Made by a program: the position numbers and the translations under genes. The notes under the pieces are model-generated. The model was not told the DNA's origin and searched no databases. It saw nothing but the letters and a program-made list of their open reading frames with translations. From Candidatus Anaerobutyricum avicola (lineage in GTDB: Bacteria > Bacillota > Clostridia > Lachnospirales > Lachnospiraceae), in the NCBI GenBank assembly GCA_019113845.1, contig DXGQ01000008.1:1-57363 (forward strand): a stretch of DNA of 57,363 bases, written 5' to 3'. Positions 20,980-36,347 of the stretch are shown in pieces; position 1 is the first letter of the stretch, and each line of letters starts with the position of its first letter.

Positions 20980-21100
20980 CACTTTTCATTCAGTACGACA
21001 AGCGGTGACTGTACACTCCTCCGTGTGTATCATACTTGATACCACACTGCGTCTCTACGCATCTGTAGATTGTAATTATTGTACAGTGACTTGTCGCCAG
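20980..21100 (-). promoter_or_regulatory. structured leader RNA of the S10 operon
   Basis: In the rpsJ leader, read on the minus strand, GACAAGTCACTGTACA (21080-21096 region) pairs with TGTACAGT...CTTGTC (20996-21015). Inside are two further hairpins: TGCGT-AGAG-ACGCA, and GTGTGGTATCA-AGTA-TGATACACAC with one bulged G. Such a multibranched leader upstream of a ribosomal operon fits autogenous control by a ribosomal protein; which protein is not known. Confidence 0.65.
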
Positions 21101-21190
21101 TATCTTTGACTTGACATTCGCTCCACGGAAAACCTGCGTCATGCGCAGCAACCTCGCGCTTCATCGCTATCATGTCACACAACATGTTTT

Positions 21191-21757: not shown

Positions 21758-22690
21758 ATGGATAAAATAGCAGTGCTCATCCCCTGCTACAACGAGAGTA
21801 AGACCGTTGAGAAGGTGGTGACCGATTTTAAGAGGGTGCTCCCGGAAGCCTCCATCTACGTTTATGATAACAATTCCACGGACGACACGGCCGTTCTCGC
21901 AAAAAAGGCCGGCGCCATCGTCCGCCATGAATACCAGCAGGGCAAAGGGAATGTCATCCGGCGCATGTTCCGCGAGATCGACGCGGAATGTTACATTATG
22001 ACAGACGGCGACGACACCTACCCGGCAGAATACGCCCGTCAGATGGCTGATCTGGTTTTTGATAAAAATGTGGACATGGTCGTCGGAGACCGGCTCTCTT
22101 CCACTTACTTCGAGGAGAACAAGCGTCCTTTCCACAATCTGGGGAATTCCATCGTCCGCAAGTCGATTAATTTTCTGTTTAAGAGTGAGATCAAAGATAT
22201 CATGACCGGATACCGGGCGTTCAGCTACCAGTTTGTCAAGAGCTTTCCGGTTTTATCCAAGGGATTTGAGATAGAGACAGAGATGAGCATCCACGCCATT
22301 GATAAGAACATGTATATAGAAAATGTGATCATTGATTACCGGGACAGACCGGAAGGCAGCGAGTCCAAGCTCAATACATACTCTGACGGACTCAAAGTTT
22401 TATTTACCATCTTCCGCCTGTACCGGAATTATAAGCCGATCAATTTTTTCAGCATCATCGCTTTGCTTCTGACGATCATATCGGCAGTCTTTTTCATCCC
22501 GATCCTGATCACCTACGCAAAGACCGGACTTGTTCCGAACTTCCCGACGCTGATCGTCTGCGGCTTCGTCATCGTCGCCGCCTTAATCTCGCTTTTTACC
22601 GGCATCGTCCTGCAGACCCTCCGGCAGAAGGACCGGCAGGACTTTGAGATGAATCTCATCCGGATCTCCGAGTTTCAAAAAAAGAATTGA
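21758..22690 (+). CDS. membrane-anchored family 2 glycosyltransferase
   Basis: 310-residue GT-A fold enzyme that probably moves a sugar from a nucleotide donor to a polyprenyl-phosphate or to a surface glycan at the cytoplasmic face. The start VLIPCYNESKTVEKVV, DNNSTDDTA, and the DxD-like metal site in MTDGDDTYPAEY are clear. The C-terminus has two membrane segments at about 240-262 and 272-295, as in DPM1-like and GtrB-like enzymes. The ATG follows AAAGGAGAGATAATATC. It is convergent with the last C39-like gene, with 26 bases between stops. Donor and acceptor are unknown. Confidence 0.9.
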   Translation: MDKIAVLIPCYNESKTVEKVVTDFKRVLPEASIYVYDNNSTDDTAVLAKKAGAIVRHEYQQGKGNVIRRMFREIDAECYIMTDGDDTYPAEYARQMADLVFDKNVDMVVGDRLSSTYFEENKRPFHNLGNSIVRKSINFLFKSEIKDIMTGYRAFSYQFVKSFPVLSKGFEIETEMSIHAIDKNMYIENVIIDYRDRPEGSESKLNTYSDGLKVLFTIFRLYRNYKPINFFSIIALLLTIISAVFFIPILITYAKTGLVPNFPTLIVCGFVIVAALISLFTGIVLQTLRQKDRQDFEMNLIRISEFQKKN

Positions 22691-22716: not shown

Positions 22717-23523
22717 CTATTGCGGATTCACCAGAACATAACCGCCGGAGCTGGCCGTGCCGGAGAAATAACAGGTCTGTGCGGAGGACGTACACGGAAT
22801 CATATATTTGACGATCTCTTTTACTGTCGTATATTTGATTCTCTGGTTCTCCCCGGACCACTTTCTCTGCGCGGAATCCGCCACGATCACTTTTCCGGTA
22901 TCCGTCAGCCCGAGAAGTACCATGGTATGCTTGCTGTTCGCCCACCGTCTCGTGACTTTGCTGCTGAAGCGGCCATTCTTCTGCGTGCGGTTATTGGCTT
23001 CGATCACCACAACATTTCCACTTTTCAAATGTTTCTTAATCTGTTTTCTCGCACTTTTATTAGTAAATGTCCGCACATACTCCGTGTCGATCCCCACAGA
23101 TTCCAGCACTCTTGAGATCCCGTACATGGAAACCGGCATCTGACTGATCATGTCCTTTTGATAATTCCGGTTCCAGATGGCACTTCCAAACACCTTCTTT
23201 TCCAGAACCTTCCGCACCTTCTGCGGTTTGTAATCCGCGTATTCGTCCGTATAACCGGACAGGACTGTTGTAAGCGAGCAGACAGCACAGCCGTGCAGGT
23301 CCAGATAGGCATCCTTCTTCCACGGCTTCTTGTGCTGGCCGAAGATCCGGAAATTCCTCACTCCGTCGCTGCCATTGACTGCCACCACCATATCCGGGAC
23401 ATCCGACGCCGCCGGAAGACTGGCGACCGGCGTGGTCACGGTATCTGCCCATACAGATGCGGGACATGACGCCAGAAGCACGCACCCCATCAACAATGCC
23501 GCCGCTCTTTTTTTCCAGTTCAT
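22717..23523 (-). CDS. secreted papain-like C39-type protein, copy B
   Basis: 268 residues with a clear signal peptide (residues 1-26, ending PASVWA). The mature part has the order expected of a C39/papain-like fold: Gln in IFGQHKK, Cys in LHGCAVCSLTTVL, His in NSKHTMVLLG, and Asp in IVADSAQRKW. It therefore could be an active cysteine peptidase on the outside of the cell. It ends SSGGYVLVNPQ, a motif shared with the next gene upstream. Last gene of the minus-strand envelope operon. Peptidase activity is inferred from motifs; the substrate is unknown, and a transglutaminase-like or binding role is possible. Confidence 0.82.
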   Translation of the reverse strand: MNWKKRAAALLMGCVLLASCPASVWADTVTTPVASLPAASDVPDMVVAVNGSDGVRNFRIFGQHKKPWKKDAYLDLHGCAVCSLTTVLSGYTDEYADYKPQKVRKVLEKKVFGSAIWNRNYQKDMISQMPVSMYGISRVLESVGIDTEYVRTFTNKSARKQIKKHLKSGNVVVIEANNRTQKNGRFSSKVTRRWANSKHTMVLLGLTDTGKVIVADSAQRKWSGENQRIKYTTVKEIVKYMIPCTSSAQTCYFSGTASSGGYVLVNPQ

Positions 23524-23547
23524 TTTTTCTCTTTTCCTTTCTCTGTA

Positions 23548-24597
23548 TCATTCTTCCTGCGGATTGATCAAAATGTACCCTCCGCTGCTTGCCTTTCCTC
23601 CCCAGTACAGAGAAGTGGAGGTTGTATCCGTACAGGAAAACATATAGCCGATCAGCTCGTCAAGCGGCGCATATTTGATCCGCTGATCATCTCCAAAAAT
23701 ATCCCGGGAGCGATCCACCGTATCCGCAATGATGACCTCGTCCGTGTCCGTCATGCCAAGCATGGTCATACAGTGATAACCCGTCGTCCATTTATTTTTC
23801 CGCGCGCCCTTAAACCGGCTCTTTGCGCTGACGATAAAGATGACCGGATTGCCGGACTTCAGATGCGCCTCGATCTCCGCCATCGCCTGCGTATCCTCAA
23901 AGACTCTGACATACCGATATTTCACCTGATACGCATCCAGCACCTTCGTCATCCCGTAAAGACTGATCGGCATCGGACGGCTCTTACTGTCGTCCGTATC
24001 CTTCTTACTGTAATTCTTTGTCCAGGCATTCCCGAACATCTCCCGCTCCACATTTTCCACCAGATAATACGGTTTCTCCGCAAATCCGGCATACGCACCG
24101 AGGACACAGGCGAGAGAGGAAGCTGAGCATCCGTGTCCCGGCATGTAACGCGGAAACTGTTTGCTAAGATTTTCTTTCGCACTCTGCTTACAGATGGTGT
24201 ACGTCCGGTCCTGCGGATCACTGTTCACCGTGACGGTCAGATTATCCACCCGGGTATCTGCAGGAAGATCTGCCCTCTTTGTGACGACCGGCTGAACTTC
24301 CTCCTGTGACGGCGTCGTCTGCGGCAGCTGCCCGTCTGCAACGGACATCGCTTCCGAACCATTCTCCGGCAGTGTTTCCTCCGCTGCCGTCTGACTGTCC
24401 GCGGCAGAGGAATCCCCGTTCTTCCTGTCTTCAGAACCAGGATCGTCCGCAGCCATACTACTGTCCGCAGCGGCTGTTTCCACATCCGCGCGTCTCTCGC
24501 CAACATCACCGGCCCGCAGACAGAAAAACAGGACAATCGCCAGGATGACCAGGATCAGAGCTGCCGTGACAGATCGCTTTGATAATTTTCTCTTCAT
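23548..24597 (-). CDS. membrane-anchored papain-like C39-type protein, copy A
   Basis: 349 residues. A single N-terminal membrane segment (about 9-28, no cleavage site) is followed by a Ser/Asp/Ala-rich linker to about residue 125, then a C39-like domain: Gln in TICKQSAK, Cys in PGHGCSASSLACVL, His in TGYHCMTMLG, Asp in IIADTVDRS. It ends SSGGYILINPQEE. It is paralogous to the following gene, the two lying head to tail with 24 bases between. Its ATG overlaps the SGNH gene stop (TGATG). Likely a surface-tethered cysteine hydrolase; substrate unknown. Confidence 0.82.
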   Translation of the reverse strand: MKRKLSKRSVTAALILVILAIVLFFCLRAGDVGERRADVETAAADSSMAADDPGSEDRKNGDSSAADSQTAAEETLPENGSEAMSVADGQLPQTTPSQEEVQPVVTKRADLPADTRVDNLTVTVNSDPQDRTYTICKQSAKENLSKQFPRYMPGHGCSASSLACVLGAYAGFAEKPYYLVENVEREMFGNAWTKNYSKKDTDDSKSRPMPISLYGMTKVLDAYQVKYRYVRVFEDTQAMAEIEAHLKSGNPVIFIVSAKSRFKGARKNKWTTGYHCMTMLGMTDTDEVIIADTVDRSRDIFGDDQRIKYAPLDELIGYMFSCTDTTSTSLYWGGKASSGGYILINPQEE

Positions 24598-25427
24598 CAG
24601 TCATCATTTCCAATAAAGTTGTTGACATAGTTATAAATCTGCTCATCGACCTCCGTCGTATAATGGAGCTGATAACTGGAGCTCTCTTTCATATAGCGGA
24701 TCGGAAGTCTTCTGTATTTCAGCGCATACCGGTATGCGCTTTTTTTATGAATCAGTCCCTGCTTTTTAAAGATATTTTTGTACGTATCCAGGTACGTAAC
24801 ATTCTCATACGGGGACTTCTCGATCAGACTTTTCAGTTTCTTATTAAACCGCACGACCATACTGTTGGTCGCTGTGTTCCCCTGATAATGCAGCGGTTTG
24901 TAGATCGGATTCAGCGACATCAGATAGAAATGATCCTCCGGATACTTTTTGATAAAGTTCTTTTTATAGAGTTTCCAATATTGTTTTGCCAGAGTTTCCG
25001 GGCTTGCCGGCACCCGTTTTCCTCCCACGCGGGTGTAAAACTCATTCAGCTCCGTATTATAGAGATCGTTCACGCCGGAATTAAAGACCACATTCTGTCT
25101 TCCCGGCTCGCTGACTACGTTCTCCACCACCGGAATCGCTTCCTCCACCAGAGAATACCCGGTTCCTCTTCCGGCGTAGCAGTCACGGTACTTGAGCATG
25201 AGATATTTTCCCTCGACTCTCGCCTTGCTCCGGTAAGAGACACCGCCCGGCGCTTTCATATTCAGATCCTGATAGATGAGCACCGTTCTGGAATCTCCCA
25301 CCCACAGGGAAATGTTATCTCTCGTATCAATATTTTTAGCTGCCGCCTGCGCGGTCGTACCGGCTCCGGCCAGCATTGCCGCCGCCAGCAGCATTGTTGT
25401 CATTTTTATGATTCTGTTTTTTCGCAT
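24597..25427 (-). CDS. secreted SGNH/GDSL-type hydrolase, degenerate triad
   Basis: 276 residues with a signal peptide (1-29, ending TTAQA). Blocks of the SGNH family: the nucleophile Ser in WVGDSRTVLI, the oxyanion block FNSGVNDLYN, and the final His in YQLHYTTEVDEQIYNYV. The family expects Asp three residues before that His; here the position is Tyr, so the catalytic Asp is missing or supplied elsewhere. It follows two acyltransferase 3 genes, the usual partners in O-acetylation of peptidoglycan or wall glycans. Most likely an O-acetyl transferase or esterase acting outside the cell. Confidence 0.8.
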   Translation of the reverse strand: MRKNRIIKMTTMLLAAAMLAGAGTTAQAAAKNIDTRDNISLWVGDSRTVLIYQDLNMKAPGGVSYRSKARVEGKYLMLKYRDCYAGRGTGYSLVEEAIPVVENVVSEPGRQNVVFNSGVNDLYNTELNEFYTRVGGKRVPASPETLAKQYWKLYKKNFIKKYPEDHFYLMSLNPIYKPLHYQGNTATNSMVVRFNKKLKSLIEKSPYENVTYLDTYKNIFKKQGLIHKKSAYRYALKYRRLPIRYMKESSSYQLHYTTEVDEQIYNYVNNFIGNDD

Positions 25428-25448
25428 AGCGCTTCCCTTCTGTCTTAT

Positions 25449-26444
25449 TTACTCTCCATATTCACCAAACAACAAAACGCGAAAAATTCTCCACCTGCGA
25501 AGGATAACGGCTGCCACATAAGAGACGATGACGCCGGCCGCAAAACAAAACAGGATGACCAGAACATTCGGCAGACCGAGTATGTTCCACAAGATCAGTC
25601 TGAAAACCGTCTGTACCGGGTCCGATAAAATGTACACATCCATACTGCCATCGCCAAGCTTTTTCAGAGGCGCGCACGGAGCCGCTCCCTTTGCCAGCAG
25701 CCAGAGGGCGAGCAGGATACACAGACCGCTTCCCGCCACGGACGTCATAAACTCTGCCACGGAGCATCCCCCGTACAGAAGGACATTTCCTCCCGCAAAC
25801 AGCAGAAAAAGCACGGCAGCGCACCATTTCTTTGTCCCCCACCGCAACACTCTCTCGTAGTGTTCTCTCAGATATAATCCGAGCAGGAAAAAGAAAAGAT
25901 ATTTCAGCACCCGGATCTCCCAGGAAAAAGCAAACGCAGCAGCGGACAGCACAGCGGTAAGAATCAGTACCGGTCCGGACACCGTCCGCCGCACAAGAAC
26001 GAGCGTGAGGACAGACACCCAGAACAGCGTGTACAAAAACCACAGCGTCGTGTTGGGATTCTCACCGAGGAGAATCTTCCACGCCGCGGAAAAATCATAC
26101 GGATTTCTCGCGAAACGGGACAGAAAATATTTCAACGGCATATAAAGGATCCCCACAACAAAATACGGGATGAGAAGGCGGAACGCCCTGCTCTTTATAT
26201 ACCCGAAATATTCTCCGGCCTCTGTAAATCGCAGAATCTTTATGGACACGAAACCGGACAGCACAAAAAAAAGCGGCATGTGAAAGCTGTAGATCAGCTG
26301 GAGGAGTACGGAGATCGCCGTGTCCGTCACCCCTGTCTGCTTCATGGCATGCCCGAGCACAACAAGCAGAATGCCCATGCCCTTTGCGATCGTGATCTCA
26401 TTATAATATTTCCTGTTTGGCTGTATTACATTCTCCATCGTCAT
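25449..26444 (-). CDS. acyltransferase 3 family membrane protein
   Basis: 331 residues with about ten membrane segments. The motif VVLGHAMKQTG with the functional His near residue 36, and SFHMPLFFVLSGFVSIK after it, identify the acyltransferase 3 (OatA/WecH/NodX type) family, which moves acyl groups across the membrane to a glycan. It has no C-terminal SGNH domain; a separate SGNH gene follows 21 bases later, so the two may be a split OatA-like pair. Acceptor glycan unknown. Confidence 0.85.
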   Translation of the reverse strand: MTMENVIQPNRKYYNEITIAKGMGILLVVLGHAMKQTGVTDTAISVLLQLIYSFHMPLFFVLSGFVSIKILRFTEAGEYFGYIKSRAFRLLIPYFVVGILYMPLKYFLSRFARNPYDFSAAWKILLGENPNTTLWFLYTLFWVSVLTLVLVRRTVSGPVLILTAVLSAAAFAFSWEIRVLKYLFFFLLGLYLREHYERVLRWGTKKWCAAVLFLLFAGGNVLLYGGCSVAEFMTSVAGSGLCILLALWLLAKGAAPCAPLKKLGDGSMDVYILSDPVQTVFRLILWNILGLPNVLVILFCFAAGVIVSYVAAVILRRWRIFRVLLFGEYGE

Positions 26445-26504
26445 CTTTTCCTCTTTTCTGACACATTTACTGTGTCAATACTGGTAGATTTTGAAAGTTC
26501 ACTT

Positions 26505-27635
26505 TTAAACTTCCTTCTCTCTCCCGCCTCCGGCGGTAAGGCTCTGCAGCCTTGTTTCCACTGCTGCGGTCAACCGGTCATAGCGCAATGCTTTTTTTAC
26601 CCACTCAAGCGCCACAGAAAAGACAAAACTGTCCAGAAGCAGCACAAGGACGATCAGCCACCAGAACCGGAAGGAATAGGAAAAATCTTCAAACCATCTG
26701 GCGCGGATAAAATTGTGAAAAAGAAACATATTCATGGAATACTTTCCAAGCAGCGCGAGCACTTCTTTCAAAAGCGGGATCCCCGCCAGAAAAAGGTAAG
26801 TAAAAACAATGACCAAAAGCGGCGTCACACTGTCCGTAATGCTAAGATGCGCTTTTCCGAAAGCGGAAGTCTTCAGCCAGACGGTTCCCGCAAGGCACAC
26901 AGCCAGAACGATCAGTTCTATCACTCTTGTCACTGCCTCTCCCATGCGGGGCAGTCTCCACGCCGCCAGCCGTGGAAAAAGATCTTCTTCGGCAAACCAG
27001 ATACCGAGTACCATAGCCGGCAGATACCGCACCAGATTCGTCTCTTCCAGCGACAGCGCCATCGGAAGAAGATAACTGAGAGCGATCGTCACAAAGGCGC
27101 CGCAGCGGCGGTACAACCAGTAAAGAAGCGGCAAAAGCATGACTTCCACAAATGCCAGGCTCAGATACCACCAGGTGCCAAGCAGTGTCGGCGTATCAAA
27201 CAGATGCGCCAGCCCCAGAAAATCTATCACAACATAGACAAGCCGGGAAAACCCTCCCTTGTACACGGAAAAGCTCTCCGGCGCCCAGATGGCACAGCCG
27301 AGTACTGCCAGAACAAAAACCGGCCAGAAACTGCCAAGGATCTTCCAGATCCTCCGGATCACCAGCCAGGATAATGTCTCCCGGCCATACTGCCGGTTGT
27401 CATACAACCGTTTTAACGAGAGCGCGATACCGTAGGCGCTCAGAAAAACAAAAATACCGACGCAGACTTTGGACCAGAGCGCCAGTGTCACCACCGTATC
27501 TCTGGAAAACGGCGCAAAAGATACGCCGTGAGCCTTGAACTTCACGCCGGTCACATAACAATGATGGAAGAGCATTGCGATGATCGCAACGCCCTTCACA
27601 ATGTTTGTATCCTTCTTGGAAAACTGCAGGTTCAT
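26505..27635 (-). CDS. acyltransferase 3 family membrane protein, second copy
   Basis: 376 residues, polytopic. The His-containing first segment (IAMLFHHCYVTG) and GIFVFLSAYGIALS match acyltransferase 3 but are clearly different from the neighbouring copy (little alignment beyond the motifs), so it is not a recent duplicate. The early ribosome binding site and the 34-base gap after the L,D-transpeptidase gene place it in the same operon. It may use another acyl donor or glycan site. Confidence 0.82.
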   Translation of the reverse strand: MNLQFSKKDTNIVKGVAIIAMLFHHCYVTGVKFKAHGVSFAPFSRDTVVTLALWSKVCVGIFVFLSAYGIALSLKRLYDNRQYGRETLSWLVIRRIWKILGSFWPVFVLAVLGCAIWAPESFSVYKGGFSRLVYVVIDFLGLAHLFDTPTLLGTWWYLSLAFVEVMLLPLLYWLYRRCGAFVTIALSYLLPMALSLEETNLVRYLPAMVLGIWFAEEDLFPRLAAWRLPRMGEAVTRVIELIVLAVCLAGTVWLKTSAFGKAHLSITDSVTPLLVIVFTYLFLAGIPLLKEVLALLGKYSMNMFLFHNFIRARWFEDFSYSFRFWWLIVLVLLLDSFVFSVALEWVKKALRYDRLTAAVETRLQSLTAGGGREKEV

Positions 27636-27669
27636 AAAATCCTCTCTCCCCTGAAAGAATGGTCATGGA

Positions 27670-28788
27670 TTAATACGGGTTGGTCGGGAATAACTCCGGA
27701 TCCGTCGGGTCCGTTTTTCTTGAGGTATTCAGTTTACCCGTGGTATCTTTTAACTTCACAACACCGAACGGGCCTGTCTGTTTTTTCTTGATAATATCTA
27801 CCCAGACACGCTCTTTCTGGTTCGTCTTTGTGGCAATATCGTAGATGATCTTGGCATTGACCGCCTGCATGCGGACACAGTAGGAAGTATTGCTGCTGCC
27901 TAATGTATTATAATATCCGGCATGAAGAGATCTGTTATTGCCATATTCTGTGTACACGCTGCTGTGCACCAGTGTCGGTGTTCCGGCAATCCGCACAGCC
28001 CACTGATACTTCCGGGTCGTGTTGTTCGGCACGTTGACCCATCTCTTTGCGGAAGTCTTCATGAGATAATAATGTCCTCTCGGTGTTCCGTTCGCCTTTG
28101 CGGAGGTGGAGCAGAGAACCGTCTTCGCCGGAATGATGTATTCCTTCGTCTTCTTATCATAGAGATAGAAGTTCGCATTGTGCGTCTTCGTGTTGATCTC
28201 GATGGTCATCTTACTCTTGATACATTTGTTATATCCCCAGTCCTTAAATAAGTTTGTGGATACGGAACCATCTTTCTTAAAATAATATCTGTACTTCTTA
28301 TCCTCGCCGGTCATGCTCTTTACCAGACGGAAGCCTTTTTTCAGTTTCTTTCCTTTTCTGATGTAATACTTTTTGTCACCGACGGTCTTCCATCCGCTCA
28401 CCTGCTGAAAGACACCGTCCTCATAATACTTCTTGCCCTTAAATCCGGTCAGCGCGGTCCCGTCCACATAATAGACGTCGGAAACTGCAGTCTGCGCTCC
28501 GGTCGCCGCGTCCAGATACGTTCCCGTAAAGGTTCCTGAATAAGCCGCTCCCTGCACACCATTTTTATAATCATAAAGCTTCCCGTCCTTCAGGGCAGTG
28601 CCGGTATAAAGATGCCCGTTTAAATACATCATCCCCTGATGCTCTCCGCTGCCTGTGAACGCTGCAGCCGCCTGCACATTCGCCAGTCTGCCCATGCTTC
28701 CCGGTACCGGCGCAAAGCTAAAAGCGTACAGTGCCGTTCCGGCCAGAACGCCTGCAAACATTACTTTTTTCATGTTCATCACTTTCAT
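27670..28788 (-). CDS. secreted L,D-transpeptidase-like protein with altered active-site motif
   Basis: 372 residues. An N-terminal signal peptide (about 1-41) is followed by Gly/Tyr-rich wall-binding-like repeats to about 180 (MYLNGHLYTGTALKDGKLYD; KKYYIRKGKKLKKGF) and a YkuD domain (about 190-345). Expected catalytic pattern is H...[ST]HGC; here VHSSVYTE supplies the His and NTSYCVRM supplies the Cys, so the usual His-Gly before Cys is Ser-Tyr. The gene begins the operon leading to the acyltransferases, SGNH and C39 proteins and has a good promoter. Probably a peptidoglycan crosslinker, but the motif change makes activity uncertain. Confidence 0.83.
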   Translation of the reverse strand: MKVMNMKKVMFAGVLAGTALYAFSFAPVPGSMGRLANVQAAAAFTGSGEHQGMMYLNGHLYTGTALKDGKLYDYKNGVQGAAYSGTFTGTYLDAATGAQTAVSDVYYVDGTALTGFKGKKYYEDGVFQQVSGWKTVGDKKYYIRKGKKLKKGFRLVKSMTGEDKKYRYYFKKDGSVSTNLFKDWGYNKCIKSKMTIEINTKTHNANFYLYDKKTKEYIIPAKTVLCSTSAKANGTPRGHYYLMKTSAKRWVNVPNNTTRKYQWAVRIAGTPTLVHSSVYTEYGNNRSLHAGYYNTLGSSNTSYCVRMQAVNAKIIYDIATKTNQKERVWVDIIKKKQTGPFGVVKLKDTTGKLNTSRKTDPTDPELFPTNPY

Positions 28789-28828: not shown

Positions 28829-28857
28829 ACTTTATCTTTTCTATTACGAAAAGTCAA
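28829..28857 (-). promoter_or_regulatory. promoter of the envelope operon (28788 to 22717)
   Basis: Minus strand: TTGACT (28852-28857) and TAAAGT (28829-28834), 17 bp apart, about 40 bases before the start codon; AGAGGAGGA serves as ribosome binding site. No terminator was seen among the six genes that follow. Confidence 0.65.
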
Positions 28858-28888: not shown

Positions 28889-30751
28889 TTACAAAGATCT
28901 CTCCTGTTCCTTTCTGGCCTTAAAATATAAAAACGCGGCAAAGACAACCGGGATGGAATAAATGACTGGGAACGCATACCGCGGATGTCCTTTGATCACC
29001 GGAGCCAGCACGATGACCGCGTCGCTCAACAATAACGGCATGAGGATCATCGCCATCTGTGGAAGCCGCTTCTTTATGGCACCATAGCAGAGATAGATTA
29101 AAATCAAATTAAAAAACGCCATGCTGGCCAGCAGCCCGAACACCGGAAGGGTAAATAGCACCTTATTAAAACCGGTCCTCCATTGATCCAGCTTCTGGAT
29201 AAGCGGGATCTCATGCACCCCCAACTCCTCTGCCAGAACGTCTGCCGCCTCCCTGTCCGGTTCCGTCGTATCGTACAGGGTATTATTTTCCACCAGCGGA
29301 TAAAGCAGATAATAATTCTGATTCATCGTCGCCTCCAGATAGGTGACCGGATGCTTCAGTCCCTGCTGCGCCCAGACGAGGAAATAATTCTTCAGATCCT
29401 CCATCGTCGCCTTATTCCTGTATGTTGCCTTGACCGGATCGGAGATCTTCGGGTCGTAGCGCTCCGCCAGCTTCCCGTAAGCCAGCACCGCCCGGATCGC
29501 TTTCTTCTCTTCCTTTGTCACCTCATCGCCGTGTTCCTTCACATAGCGCGCTGTCTGCTGAAACGGCAGAGAAAGCGCCTCCTTGATACTCCCGTCCGCA
29601 ATTTGATACTTCTGTACCATAAACTGCTGCGCGCCGGCGGAGATACCGACAGACGCCAGACATACGATCAGGGCGGTCAGAAAAAGCTTCGCCTTTGCCT
29701 TCTTTCTGTTCTGTAGGAACAGCATGACGAAAATGAGAAGAATCATCGGATAAATGACATATTTACCATTGTTTCTGAACAGCACGGAACCGATGATGGA
29801 GACAGCCAGCAGGAGCAGATGCCTCTTTTTGTGCCAGTACTCATCCTTCCACACAAGCATATACACCACTTCAATGACAAAGAGCACGATAAAATAAGAA
29901 TAGATCGTATCTTTCACGATCATTCCCAGGTACTGCGTATAGTACGGGGAGACGATGGCCGTCAGGAAAGCCGCTCCGCGCAGCCAGACCGGCGCGCCCA
30001 GTCTCCGCATTGTGTACAGCATGTACGCCAGGATGAGCGCAAACAAAACTGTCTGCAGGAAAATGTACAGAAACAGTCCCAGATTTCCGCTGCCAAGCAG
30101 CTGTCCCGCCTGCTCCGCAAGCCCCGCCAGAACCGTGTGCGCCGGCGGATGATGGGTTGTAAACTTCTGTTTTCCGAAAAACTGCAGAAGCTGATTCCAC
30201 ACGTCAATACACATGGTCGCCGGATAAGACAACAGCAGATTCGGCAGCCAGCACAGAAAGAATCCCGCAAACGGCATGGCAAAAGGATGTCGGCCATAAA
30301 ACTGTTTTATCTTCCCTGCTTTTCCCTTCACGTCCCATCCGGACTCCAGAAATACCGTCAACAATGTCGCGGCTTCCGCCAGCACCCAGGTGACGCCCAC
30401 AATATAGACTATCGTCTTTACCACCTGTCCGGCGCCGGCGTGCCAAAGCGCCAGCGAATCCACCAGACGAAAACTCTCTCCCATCGCCCAGACGACCGCG
30501 ATCAGGAAACAGATCACATACAAAAAAACTCCTCTTTTCGCGTTCTTCCTGCTCAGATATCTCTCCGCAAGGAGCAGCGCGGCAAAAATAAGGGTGGCCA
30601 CCGCCATCGTCCCCGTGAGACTCAGCTGAAAATTATAAAATATATTTAATGCCCTGCTCCCGCCGGCAAATTCCGCCAGCCCTTCGGGCAGATCAAAACG
30701 CATGCTGAGCGCGACCGCCGCGATAAAACACATGACAACACGTACAATCAA
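28889..30751 (-). CDS. large polytopic membrane protein, DUF6020-like
   Basis: 620 residues with about twelve hydrophobic segments. A central YPATMCIDVWNQLLQF and THHPPAHTVLAGL, then SPYYTQYLGMIVKDTIYSY, recall the DUF6020 family and GT-C-type membrane glycosyltransferases; a large non-membrane stretch lies at about 390-530. The start codon is TTG at 30751, preceded by AGGGG; an ATG six codons on is the alternative. It has its own promoter. It may transfer a sugar from a lipid-linked donor outside the membrane, but no activity is proven for the family. Confidence 0.7.
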   Translation of the reverse strand: MIVRVVMCFIAAVALSMRFDLPEGLAEFAGGSRALNIFYNFQLSLTGTMAVATLIFAALLLAERYLSRKNAKRGVFLYVICFLIAVVWAMGESFRLVDSLALWHAGAGQVVKTIVYIVGVTWVLAEAATLLTVFLESGWDVKGKAGKIKQFYGRHPFAMPFAGFFLCWLPNLLLSYPATMCIDVWNQLLQFFGKQKFTTHHPPAHTVLAGLAEQAGQLLGSGNLGLFLYIFLQTVLFALILAYMLYTMRRLGAPVWLRGAAFLTAIVSPYYTQYLGMIVKDTIYSYFIVLFVIEVVYMLVWKDEYWHKKRHLLLLAVSIIGSVLFRNNGKYVIYPMILLIFVMLFLQNRKKAKAKLFLTALIVCLASVGISAGAQQFMVQKYQIADGSIKEALSLPFQQTARYVKEHGDEVTKEEKKAIRAVLAYGKLAERYDPKISDPVKATYRNKATMEDLKNYFLVWAQQGLKHPVTYLEATMNQNYYLLYPLVENNTLYDTTEPDREAADVLAEELGVHEIPLIQKLDQWRTGFNKVLFTLPVFGLLASMAFFNLILIYLCYGAIKKRLPQMAMILMPLLLSDAVIVLAPVIKGHPRYAFPVIYSIPVVFAAFLYFKARKEQERSL

Positions 30752-30886: not shown

Positions 30887-31516
30887 CTATAATCCCTTAA
30901 TACGAATGACAACAGCAATTCTGTGTTTATTCAGATACTTGTACGTCCTTTTCTTATGCGGACTCTCATACCATCTCACCCTTCCGGTATCAGCCGCAGC
31001 GGAACCACCGTCATACCACAGTTTCTCACCGTTCGCATTCTTACCGGCATAGATATTCGTATGTATCATATCTCCCCATCCGACGATATCACCCGGTTTC
31101 AGCTTTGCCTTATCCGCTCTCTTGTTCATGCGGATGATCTTTACCTTGCCGTGCCAGGACTTGAATTTCTTGATGATCCTGCCTCTCTTCGTGTAGAAGG
31201 TCTCGCCCTTGTTCAGGATGCCAAACTCCTGCAGACACCAGGAAACATAAGAGGCGCAGTTCGACTTTCTTCCTTTTTTTATGCTGGCGGACAACGTAGA
31301 CATGTTTCTGTTTCCATAGGAAAAACCATAATCTACCAGGTCCTTTCCAACCTTCTCACAAACCTGAAACCAGCCCTCCACATCGTGGGTATATGTCGTT
31401 GTTTCTTCTGCCTGTACAGCTGTCGGATTCACCGCGGAGATCATAAAGATCATCACCATCACTGCCGCAAAAGCTCGGATAAAGGATTTCCATTTTGCAA
31501 AATATGTTGATGTCAT
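30887..31516 (-). CDS. secreted NlpC/P60- or CHAP-like cysteine amidase
   Basis: 209 residues from the ATG at 31516, chosen because GGAAAGGAATTT lies just before it; a longer reading from 31579 lacks a ribosome binding site. The signal peptide ends near PTAVQA. The catalytic Cys is in KSNCASYVSWCLQEFG, and a His follows in LKPGDIVGWGDMIHTNIYAG, the order of NlpC/P60 and CHAP-like peptidoglycan hydrolases. Only this single domain is present, with no binding domain. It has its own promoter and terminator. Confidence 0.78.
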   Translation of the reverse strand: MTSTYFAKWKSFIRAFAAVMVMIFMISAVNPTAVQAEETTTYTHDVEGWFQVCEKVGKDLVDYGFSYGNRNMSTLSASIKKGRKSNCASYVSWCLQEFGILNKGETFYTKRGRIIKKFKSWHGKVKIIRMNKRADKAKLKPGDIVGWGDMIHTNIYAGKNANGEKLWYDGGSAAADTGRVRWYESPHKKRTYKYLNKHRIAVVIRIKGL

Positions 31517-31563
31517 GAATAAATTCCTTTCCAAGTGTAACATTTGTAACTCGTCCGCAATAT

Positions 31564-31592
31564 ATATTACGCCAGCCATTCATAAAAGTCAA
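31564..31592 (-). promoter_or_regulatory. promoter of the NlpC/CHAP-like gene
   Basis: Minus strand: TTGACT (31587-31592) and TAATAT (31564-31569), 17 bp apart, 48 bases before the start. Confidence 0.65.
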
Positions 31593-35564: not shown

Positions 35565-36227
35565 TCAGTAGATCAGTATCTTCGGATTTGCCGCCGGCGT
35601 CAGCTTTCTCAGCACACGCCGCATCTCTTTTTTCGGGATCGCGATACAGCCCGCTGTCGCCCTGCCGGCAGAACAGTGAAGAAAAATGGCGCTTCCTCTG
35701 CCCGCCTTTCCCTTTTTATTATACCCGATCGACACCGCATAATCATACACACCGCGATATTCTGTCAGATGTTCTCCGCCGCAGCGATGTCCCGTCTCAT
35801 CCCGGCGAATCAGACGATTATAGTACGGACTGCCGGAATCACTGCACCAGTAATGCTGACTGTTTACCTTCACATAAGGCATGGCCGTCCCGGGATTTCT
35901 CAGAATACCGAATCCCTGCTCCAGCGCATACAGTCCCGTCGGCGTCTTCTGGTCGCCCTCCCGTTTTTTTCCGATACCGCGCCTTCCAAGCCACGCGTCA
36001 CACGCCAGCTTTTTCTTCCATTTTCCCTTTGCATTTTTTATGTAGAACTGAAAACGTCCCCGGCTTCCTCCCCGGTTTCTGACCACCGCCAGCTGTGAGA
36101 CATTTTCCGGCACCGTATACTCCGCCGGAATCTTTAACGCCTGTGTCTGCATCGGATACCCCCCTGCTCCCATACAGAGAATCCCCAGTACGAGCAAAAT
36201 CTTTCTTCTTATCCTATTTCTATGCAA
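35565..36227 (-). CDS. secreted YkuD-family L,D-transpeptidase, TTG start
   Basis: 220 residues from TTG at 36227. That start is chosen because GGAGG lies 8 bases before it and the resulting N-terminus (basic HRNRIRRK, then a hydrophobic core, then TQA) is a good signal peptide; the longer ATG reading has neither. The YkuD domain carries the catalytic region SAIFLHCSAGRATAGCIAI, the T-x-G-C variant common in one YkuD branch. Probably crosslinks or trims peptidoglycan. It is a single gene divergent from pyk. Confidence 0.85.
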   Translation of the reverse strand: MHRNRIRRKILLVLGILCMGAGGYPMQTQALKIPAEYTVPENVSQLAVVRNRGGSRGRFQFYIKNAKGKWKKKLACDAWLGRRGIGKKREGDQKTPTGLYALEQGFGILRNPGTAMPYVKVNSQHYWCSDSGSPYYNRLIRRDETGHRCGGEHLTEYRGVYDYAVSIGYNKKGKAGRGSAIFLHCSAGRATAGCIAIPKKEMRRVLRKLTPAANPKILIY

Positions 36228-36347
36228 AATGTCATCCTCCGTTCTTTCCGTCCACTTCTTAGTTTGAAAATAAAGATATCTACCCATCAGTTATTTTTCA
36301 GTATATCATAAATTTTGCCGTTTGCAGAAAATTTACAACTTTTTTCA

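Follow-up and report, generated by a model that had tools for sequence, protein, structure and literature searches.

The window analyzed here, a 57,363-nucleotide stretch of DNA from Candidatus Anaerobutyricum avicola (GenBank assembly GCA_019113845.1, contig DXGQ01000008.1), contains at 22717-28788 on the minus strand six open reading frames (ORFs) in a row that encode a protein resembling L,D-transpeptidases (LDT-like), two stand-alone acyltransferase-3 proteins (AT3a and AT3b), an exported SGNH protein and two C39-like proteins (C39a and C39b). We suggest that these six genes probably constitute a functional unit of the cell envelope and, more tentatively and on the basis of sequence comparisons, that the likeliest function of this unit would be acylation of a wall glycan outside the cytoplasm, proceeding from AT3 to SGNH and coupled to peptide remodelling by the LDT-like and C39 proteins. 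The gene list and coordinates of the original prediction, which had been made from the sequence of the window, were confirmed gene for gene. In order of the direction of reading, the features are:

28829-28857, minus strand: candidate promoter TTGACT-17-TAAAGT, with 9/12 matches, conserved in four of the five species carrying the operon
27670-28788, minus strand: LDT-like protein, 372 amino acids, with an export signal (by eye), wall-binding-type repeats and a diverged YkuD domain
26505-27635, minus strand: AT3a, stand-alone acyltransferase-3 identified by Pfam, 376 amino acids, with K-x10-H present and RxxK in place of RxxR
25449-26444, minus strand: AT3b, stand-alone acyltransferase-3 identified by Pfam, 331 amino acids, with (K/R)-x10-H and RxxR present
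24597-25427, minus strand: exported SGNH protein, 276 amino acids, with Ser46, Gly118, Asn120 and His255 present and Tyr/Phe in place of the block-V Asp
23548-24597, minus strand: C39a, 349 amino acids, a papain-like C39_2 domain following an N-terminal hydrophobic anchor and a low-complexity linker
22717-23523, minus strand: C39b, 268 amino acids, a C39a paralogue with an export signal

Conservation of the six-gene order in Anaerobutyricum

Anaerobutyricum is a common butyrate-forming genus of the gut. The genus survey covered 24 genomes, many of them drafts, including the source genome (G000; the other G numbers denote genomes of relatives and L numbers denote fetched loci). Genes in relatives are longest-ORF calls, some of which have wrong starts (e.g. 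the LDT gene of L063), and names marked "like" or "by eye" were assigned from inspection without a database search. All six genes are present in the same order and on the same strand in five of the 24 genomes (G000, G152, G161, G171 and G172), with the proteins of the relatives sharing 45-77% identity with those of the window. The intergenic gaps measure 34, 60, 21, -1 and 24 nucleotides in the window and range from -8 to 117 nucleotides among the five genomes. The operon was found in at least three genomic settings: it lies between ribosomal protein genes and an ApbE-like gene in G000 and G172, and is flanked by lysyl-tRNA-synthetase-like and LacI-like genes (by eye) in G152 and by acetolactate-synthase-like (by eye) and YfhO genes in G161. 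Because the six-gene order is intact in five species and at least three settings, the neighbourhood survey, which was run on samples of the genus and of the family, supports the proposal that the genes form a functional unit. The operon genes are under purifying selection, as exemplified by nonsynonymous and synonymous rates between G171 and G172 of 0.09-0.15 and 1.1-1.7, respectively, the latter being near saturation.

G000, G152, G171 and G172 share GCTTGACTTTT and GATARAGTA upstream of the LDT gene, and G161 differs. The promoter site on its own means little because 24 promoter-like sites were observed in 20-32 kb of the window versus 13.9 (standard deviation 4.2) expected. Two other origins of the operon were considered and rejected: defence, with no PADLOC match at an E value of 0.001 among nine proteins, and phage, with PHROGs giving just a weak match of C39b to a family of unknown function among four proteins scanned.

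The distribution of the individual genes demonstrates that the operon is layered, with LDT and C39 genes widespread in the genus without the partners, and operon-type SGNH and AT3b confined to the operon. SGNH orthologues occur only in the five operon genomes; strong AT3b matches are limited to the same genomes, with four further genomes having weak ones; and AT3a matches of at least 60% identity are restricted to the same five, with weaker relatives in G000, G150, G163 and G172. C39-like genes were found in 21/24 genomes (2 to 5 matches each), LDT relatives in 23/24 (strong ones in 19), and relatives of the CHAP-like gene near the operon in 21/24. Free separation of the genes in relatives, which the original prediction had named as the outcome that would speak against a unit, is thus half true: LDT and C39 genes do separate, and close orthologues of SGNH, AT3b and AT3a are found in the operon only.

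LDT and C39 genes also lie near each other elsewhere. Twelve of the 23 strong LDT copies, distributed over 11 genomes, are at most 6 kb from a C39 gene, with 0.61 expected within 10 kb, a comparison in which the copies are not independent. This proximity spans at least four settings, i.e. the operon, a second locus, two places in G154 and one in G163. The second locus is found in many genomes of the genus and comprises DegV-like, cytoplasmic SGNH, long C39, aminotransferase-like, branching-enzyme-like and further C39 genes. An LDT gene is also located there in the species G150, G151, G156 and G160, which lack the operon, and, up to the contig end, in G157 and G166. No LDT gene is present in the 20 kb examined around the second locus of the source genome; at 7345-14110 of L010 (contig C39) this locus holds two more C39 paralogues and the cytoplasmic SGNH, with metabolic genes between. 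The SGNH of the second locus was rejected as an operon-type SGNH because, by eye, it lacks an export signal, and because its block V has the normal DGxH sequence.

These distributions bear on a simpler explanation of the operon, namely that envelope genes without a shared substrate are co-expressed and that the operon is a regulatory convenience. This explanation agrees with the presence of the operon in just five genomes and with the finding that most genomes of the genus have LDT, C39 and CHAP-like genes that are not accompanied by AT3 and SGNH; nevertheless, the six-gene order persists across changed genomic settings, LDT genes recur close to C39 genes in at least four settings, and we regard co-expression alone as unlikely.

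Active-site features of the encoded proteins

Both acyltransferases pass the cut-off of 31 bits for Acyl_transf_3 (PF01757), AT3a with 59.4 bits and AT3b with 134.2 bits, and BLASTP produced no alignment between the two. The AT3 motifs (K/R)-x10-H in helix 1 and RxxR were taken from PMC9833829, which, like the other papers cited here by PMC number, is cited from an excerpt. By eye, (K/R)-x10-H is present in 5/5 operon proteins for both AT3s, and the second motif reads RxxR in 5/5 AT3b and RxxK in 5/5 AT3a proteins. AT3b lies directly upstream of the SGNH gene in all five operon genomes. In G163, an AT3a relative (L194 5943-7034, plus strand) is found among phage-tail-like genes (by eye), similarly to phage-borne surface acyltransferases.

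The window SGNH protein scores below the GDSL cut-off (16.9 versus 23.6 bits). Its assignment is based on the orthologue in G152, which passes this cut-off with 25.2 bits, and on the alignment of the window protein with plain GDSR-type relatives. For this alignment, 17 regions were fetched, of which 14 gave a profile match and three (L115, L119 and L123) gave none; 11 of the 14 (without L116, L125 and L128) and one SGNH of the source genome were used as rows. The Ser, Gly, Asn and His of SGNH blocks I, II, III and V are invariant in the five operon proteins, and the block-V Asp, present in 12/12 aligned relatives, is Tyr or Phe in all five. Because SGNH-type esterases of family CE2 are known to work with Ser-His dyads (PMC12313940), the operon SGNH may still be active. 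The structure model of the SGNH protein was too poor for use, with a mean predicted local distance difference test score (pLDDT) of 58.5, and a PDB sequence search with the SGNH and C39 profiles gave no match at E values up to 1.

The LDT-like protein carries wall-binding-type repeats in its N-terminal half and a diverged YkuD domain at approximately residues 188-372, with His275-Ser276, Cys304 and Arg306. Pfam gave no YkuD match for the full-length protein, and a search of the source genome with PF03734 listed four other genes without the operon LDT gene; the catalytic domain alone passes PF03734 narrowly (24.2 bits versus a cut-off of 23.4), and two other LDT domains of the genus (L061 and L072) gave no YkuD match in the same scan. 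We draw the homology to YkuD from the profile of the LDT family, since five relatives that it recovers from other genera are clear YkuD proteins. Comparing the LDT-domain profile with two canonical LDTs of the source genome by hhalign gave a probability of <1%. Strong PDB matches of the LDT profile were set aside because they align the repeat domain, rather than the catalytic domain, with choline-binding proteins and the repeats of clostridial toxins. An AlphaFold2 model built from ten sequences reached a mean pLDDT of 79 and a predicted template modelling score of 0.72.

In a review, the YkuD motif is given as HG(S/T)...(S/T)XGC(hydrophobic)R (PMC12729407). The glycine of (S/T)xGC is present in 0/23 strong LDTs of the genus versus 4/4 outgroup LDTs, which read HS and SHGC(V/I)R; His-Ser, Thr and Arg are retained in 23/23 and Cys in 22/23. 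It is because of the absent glycine that we refer to the protein as LDT-like rather than as a proven LDT. A motif script run on four YkuD loci of the source genome matched in one (L003). The five operon LDTs form one clade (99/98) in a tree from which a weaker LDT group (E values of about 1e-4 to 1e-8) was left out. An LDT-like protein of G151 (A. hallii; L203 7862-8728, minus strand) has Ser at the position of the catalytic Cys, and the window contains a separate YkuD gene outside the operon (35565-36287, minus strand; 31.4 bits).

The original prediction likened the separate AT3 and SGNH genes to a split OatA. If this likeness were extended to function, the target of O-acetylation by AT3b and SGNH would be peptidoglycan itself, with LDT and C39 as co-made enzymes for cross-linking and trimming it. 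The repeats and YkuD ancestry of the LDT-like protein are in line with such a role, as are the position of AT3b directly upstream of SGNH and the statement in a review that the stand-alone AT3 WecH could cooperate with PatB, a separate SGNH protein (PMC9558356). Yet the SGNH lacks the block-V Asp and the LDT-like protein lacks the motif Gly, and the neighbouring genes described below, for a family 2 glycosyltransferase (GT2) and DUF6020 or YfhO, point to another glycan, leaving peptidoglycan O-acetylation with a low probability in our estimate. The split OatA remains useful as a functional analogy, following the WecH/PatB example, and fails as a statement of family membership, the proteins being unfused and the block-V Asp missing.

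C39a (45.2 bits) and C39b (32 bits) both pass the cut-off of 24 bits for Peptidase_C39_2 (PF13529) and are paralogues with 37% identity. The catalytic Cys, His and Asp are invariant in all 24 rows of an alignment made up of both window domains and 22 of 31 domains of relatives, the C39b proteins of G152, G171 and G172 being among those left out. In the corresponding tree, the five operon C39a proteins form one clade (100/99), and the two operon C39b proteins included pair together, joined next by a lone C39 gene from G157. The operon C39a proteins of relatives are approximately 140-165 residues longer than window C39a with its hydrophobic anchor and low-complexity linker.

Big_2 domains were detected in both of the long C39a relatives scanned, of which the G152 protein is the one from an operon. 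Together with the ability of YkuD enzymes to anchor proteins to peptidoglycan (PMC12729407), these domains would fit a system in which the C39 proteins process a secreted protein, the LDT-like protein attaches it to the wall, and AT3 and SGNH acylate its glycan. Set against this, window C39a has no Big_2 match in Pfam, and no substrate protein turned up, though no search was aimed at one; a surface-protein system of this kind appears very unlikely to us.

Neighbouring genes and occurrence outside the genus

Three genes close to the operon recur near it or its components:

28889-30751, minus strand: DUF6020 multi-pass membrane protein, directly upstream of the operon in 4/5 operon species
30887-31579, minus strand: CHAP-like exported protein, with a weak CHAP match below the cut-off, near the operon in 4/5
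21758-22690, plus strand: GT2 gene facing the operon, encoding two C-terminal hydrophobic segments

G171, G172, G151 and G152 have GT2 relatives with 71-88% identity next to LDT or C39 genes; the one in G151 adjoins two DUF6020 genes and the LDT gene, and the one in G152 is at the second locus. In CsbB/YfhO systems, a GT-A enzyme is paired with a multi-pass GT-C enzyme (PMC8035078), and by analogy we would guess that DUF6020 is a sugar transferase of this kind. The GT2 and DUF6020 neighbours (YfhO in G161) suggest extracellular glycosylation of the wall glycan as well. On the same side of the operon as the GT2 gene, the window contains an S10-Clostridia ribosomal protein leader (21091-21172, minus strand; Rfam RF03136, 90.7 bits) just upstream of the flanking ribosomal protein genes.

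In the sampled family, C39 proteins of this type are almost confined to Anaerobutyricum. A search with the C39a protein matched two of 150 family genomes, the source genome and one marginal case, and the 24-row C39 profile matched 15/397 family genomes, i.e. two of the genus, G249 (E value 1.3e-66), G396 (E value 3.5e-30) and 11 weak ones. A search from the C39-like protein of G396 matched just G000, G152, G249 and G396. In G396, which belongs to another genus, the C39-like gene is the last in a row with MBOAT, ALGX-type SGNH and SH3 genes (L162 3783-8234, minus strand), a possible second kind of association between acyltransferases and C39 proteins. The SGNH profile matched 16/397 family genomes, G000 and G152 strongly and 14 weakly, and none of the 17 regions around weak SGNH matches contained an AT3a, AT3b or C39 profile match.

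Proposed pathway and comparison with known systems

Combining the conserved gene order with the features of the proteins, we suggest that the operon would be inherited as a unit and that its products would complete a glycopolymer of the cell wall on the outer side of the membrane. An AT3 protein, most likely AT3b, would take an acyl group from acyl-CoA in the cytoplasm and bring it across the membrane to the outer face. The exported SGNH protein, relying on Ser and His in the absence of the block-V Asp, would then transfer this group to a sugar hydroxyl of a wall glycan. The LDT-like protein would bind the wall by means of its repeats and use its Cys to act on peptide stems or on a peptide-linked partner, and this same peptide portion would be cleaved or rejoined by the two C39-like cysteine enzymes.

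Several observations weigh against this pathway. Judged from the substitutions, the SGNH without the block-V Asp and the LDT without the motif Gly could each be inactive or serve another job. LDT and C39 genes occur without AT3 or SGNH in most genomes of the genus, so a coupling of acylation to remodelling is not obligatory. Eleven of the 23 strong LDT copies have no C39 gene within 10 kb on the same contig; three of these (G158, G157 and G166) adjoin the reactivase-like gene of the second locus, that of G162 adjoins genes resembling others near this locus (by eye), and the remaining seven are without second-locus neighbours. Neither GT2 nor DUF6020 was seen near the G161 operon, and no GT2 in the operon stretch of G152. 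Outside the genus, no acyltransferase is among the ORFs listed for the G249 C39 locus and the MBOAT association is a single case (G396). Moreover, 0/20 stretches around LDT relatives in other genera contained an AT3a, AT3b, SGNH or C39 match, and 0/20 contained MBOAT or ALGX relatives, several of these stretches ending at contig ends (L190 after 3.6 kb, L191 after 9 kb); two operon loci and the G396 locus, included as positive controls, gave the expected matches.

A bolder version of the pathway holds that the LDT-like and C39 proteins join peptide stems to the glycan or surface protein that is acylated by AT3 and the Asp-less SGNH, generating a new covalent wall linkage. Acylation and conjugation would then be one pathway, carried out by a machine largely peculiar to one genus; we give this version, in both of its parts, a slim chance.

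Beyond the original prediction, the analysis identified the altered LDT motif, the near-restriction of the C39 proteins to one genus, and the recurrent GT2, DUF6020 and CHAP-like neighbours. Among open-licence papers, a weak basis for absence, no paper was found tying such a gene set to Anaerobutyricum, and judging by title nothing related was found in these papers on operons of C39 family peptidases and acyltransferases. If the pathway of wall-glycan acylation and peptide remodelling is correct, the operon offers a well-delimited entry point to the genetics of wall acylation in a commensal of the gut. It would also supply two naturally occurring variants of active sites, in an LDT-like family that has lost the motif Gly and in an Asp-less SGNH beside stand-alone AT3s, both of which bear on how stand-alone AT3s work and whether they need partners, an open question according to the review PMC9558356.

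The operon shares elements with four types of known systems. As in the AT3-SGNH proteins of the OatA/OafB type (PMC9558356, PMC9833829, PMC9487903), AT3 is associated with an extracytoplasmic SGNH, here through adjacent genes, and the motifs are kept in AT3b; unlike in these proteins, the two are separate polypeptides in 5/5 genomes, there are two AT3s, the SGNH is without the block-V Asp, and LDT and C39 proteins are partners. With YkuD L,D-transpeptidases (PMC12729407), the operon LDT shares domain homology, His-Ser, Cys, Arg and wall-binding-type repeats, and differs from them in that the glycine of (S/T)xGC is gone in all 23 genus proteins examined. The likeness to CsbB/GtcA/YfhO glycosylation (PMC8035078), a type of system built from a GT-A enzyme, a flippase and a GT-C enzyme, consists in the GT2 gene and the gene for a multi-pass protein (DUF6020 or YfhO) next to the operon, the role of DUF6020 being a guess. 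Finally, the separation of a membrane carrier from an SGNH transferase parallels PatA/PatB, AlgI/AlgX and MBOAT-DHHW systems, and the C39-like gene of G396 adjoins such a pair; in contrast to these systems, the operon described here uses AT3 instead of MBOAT.

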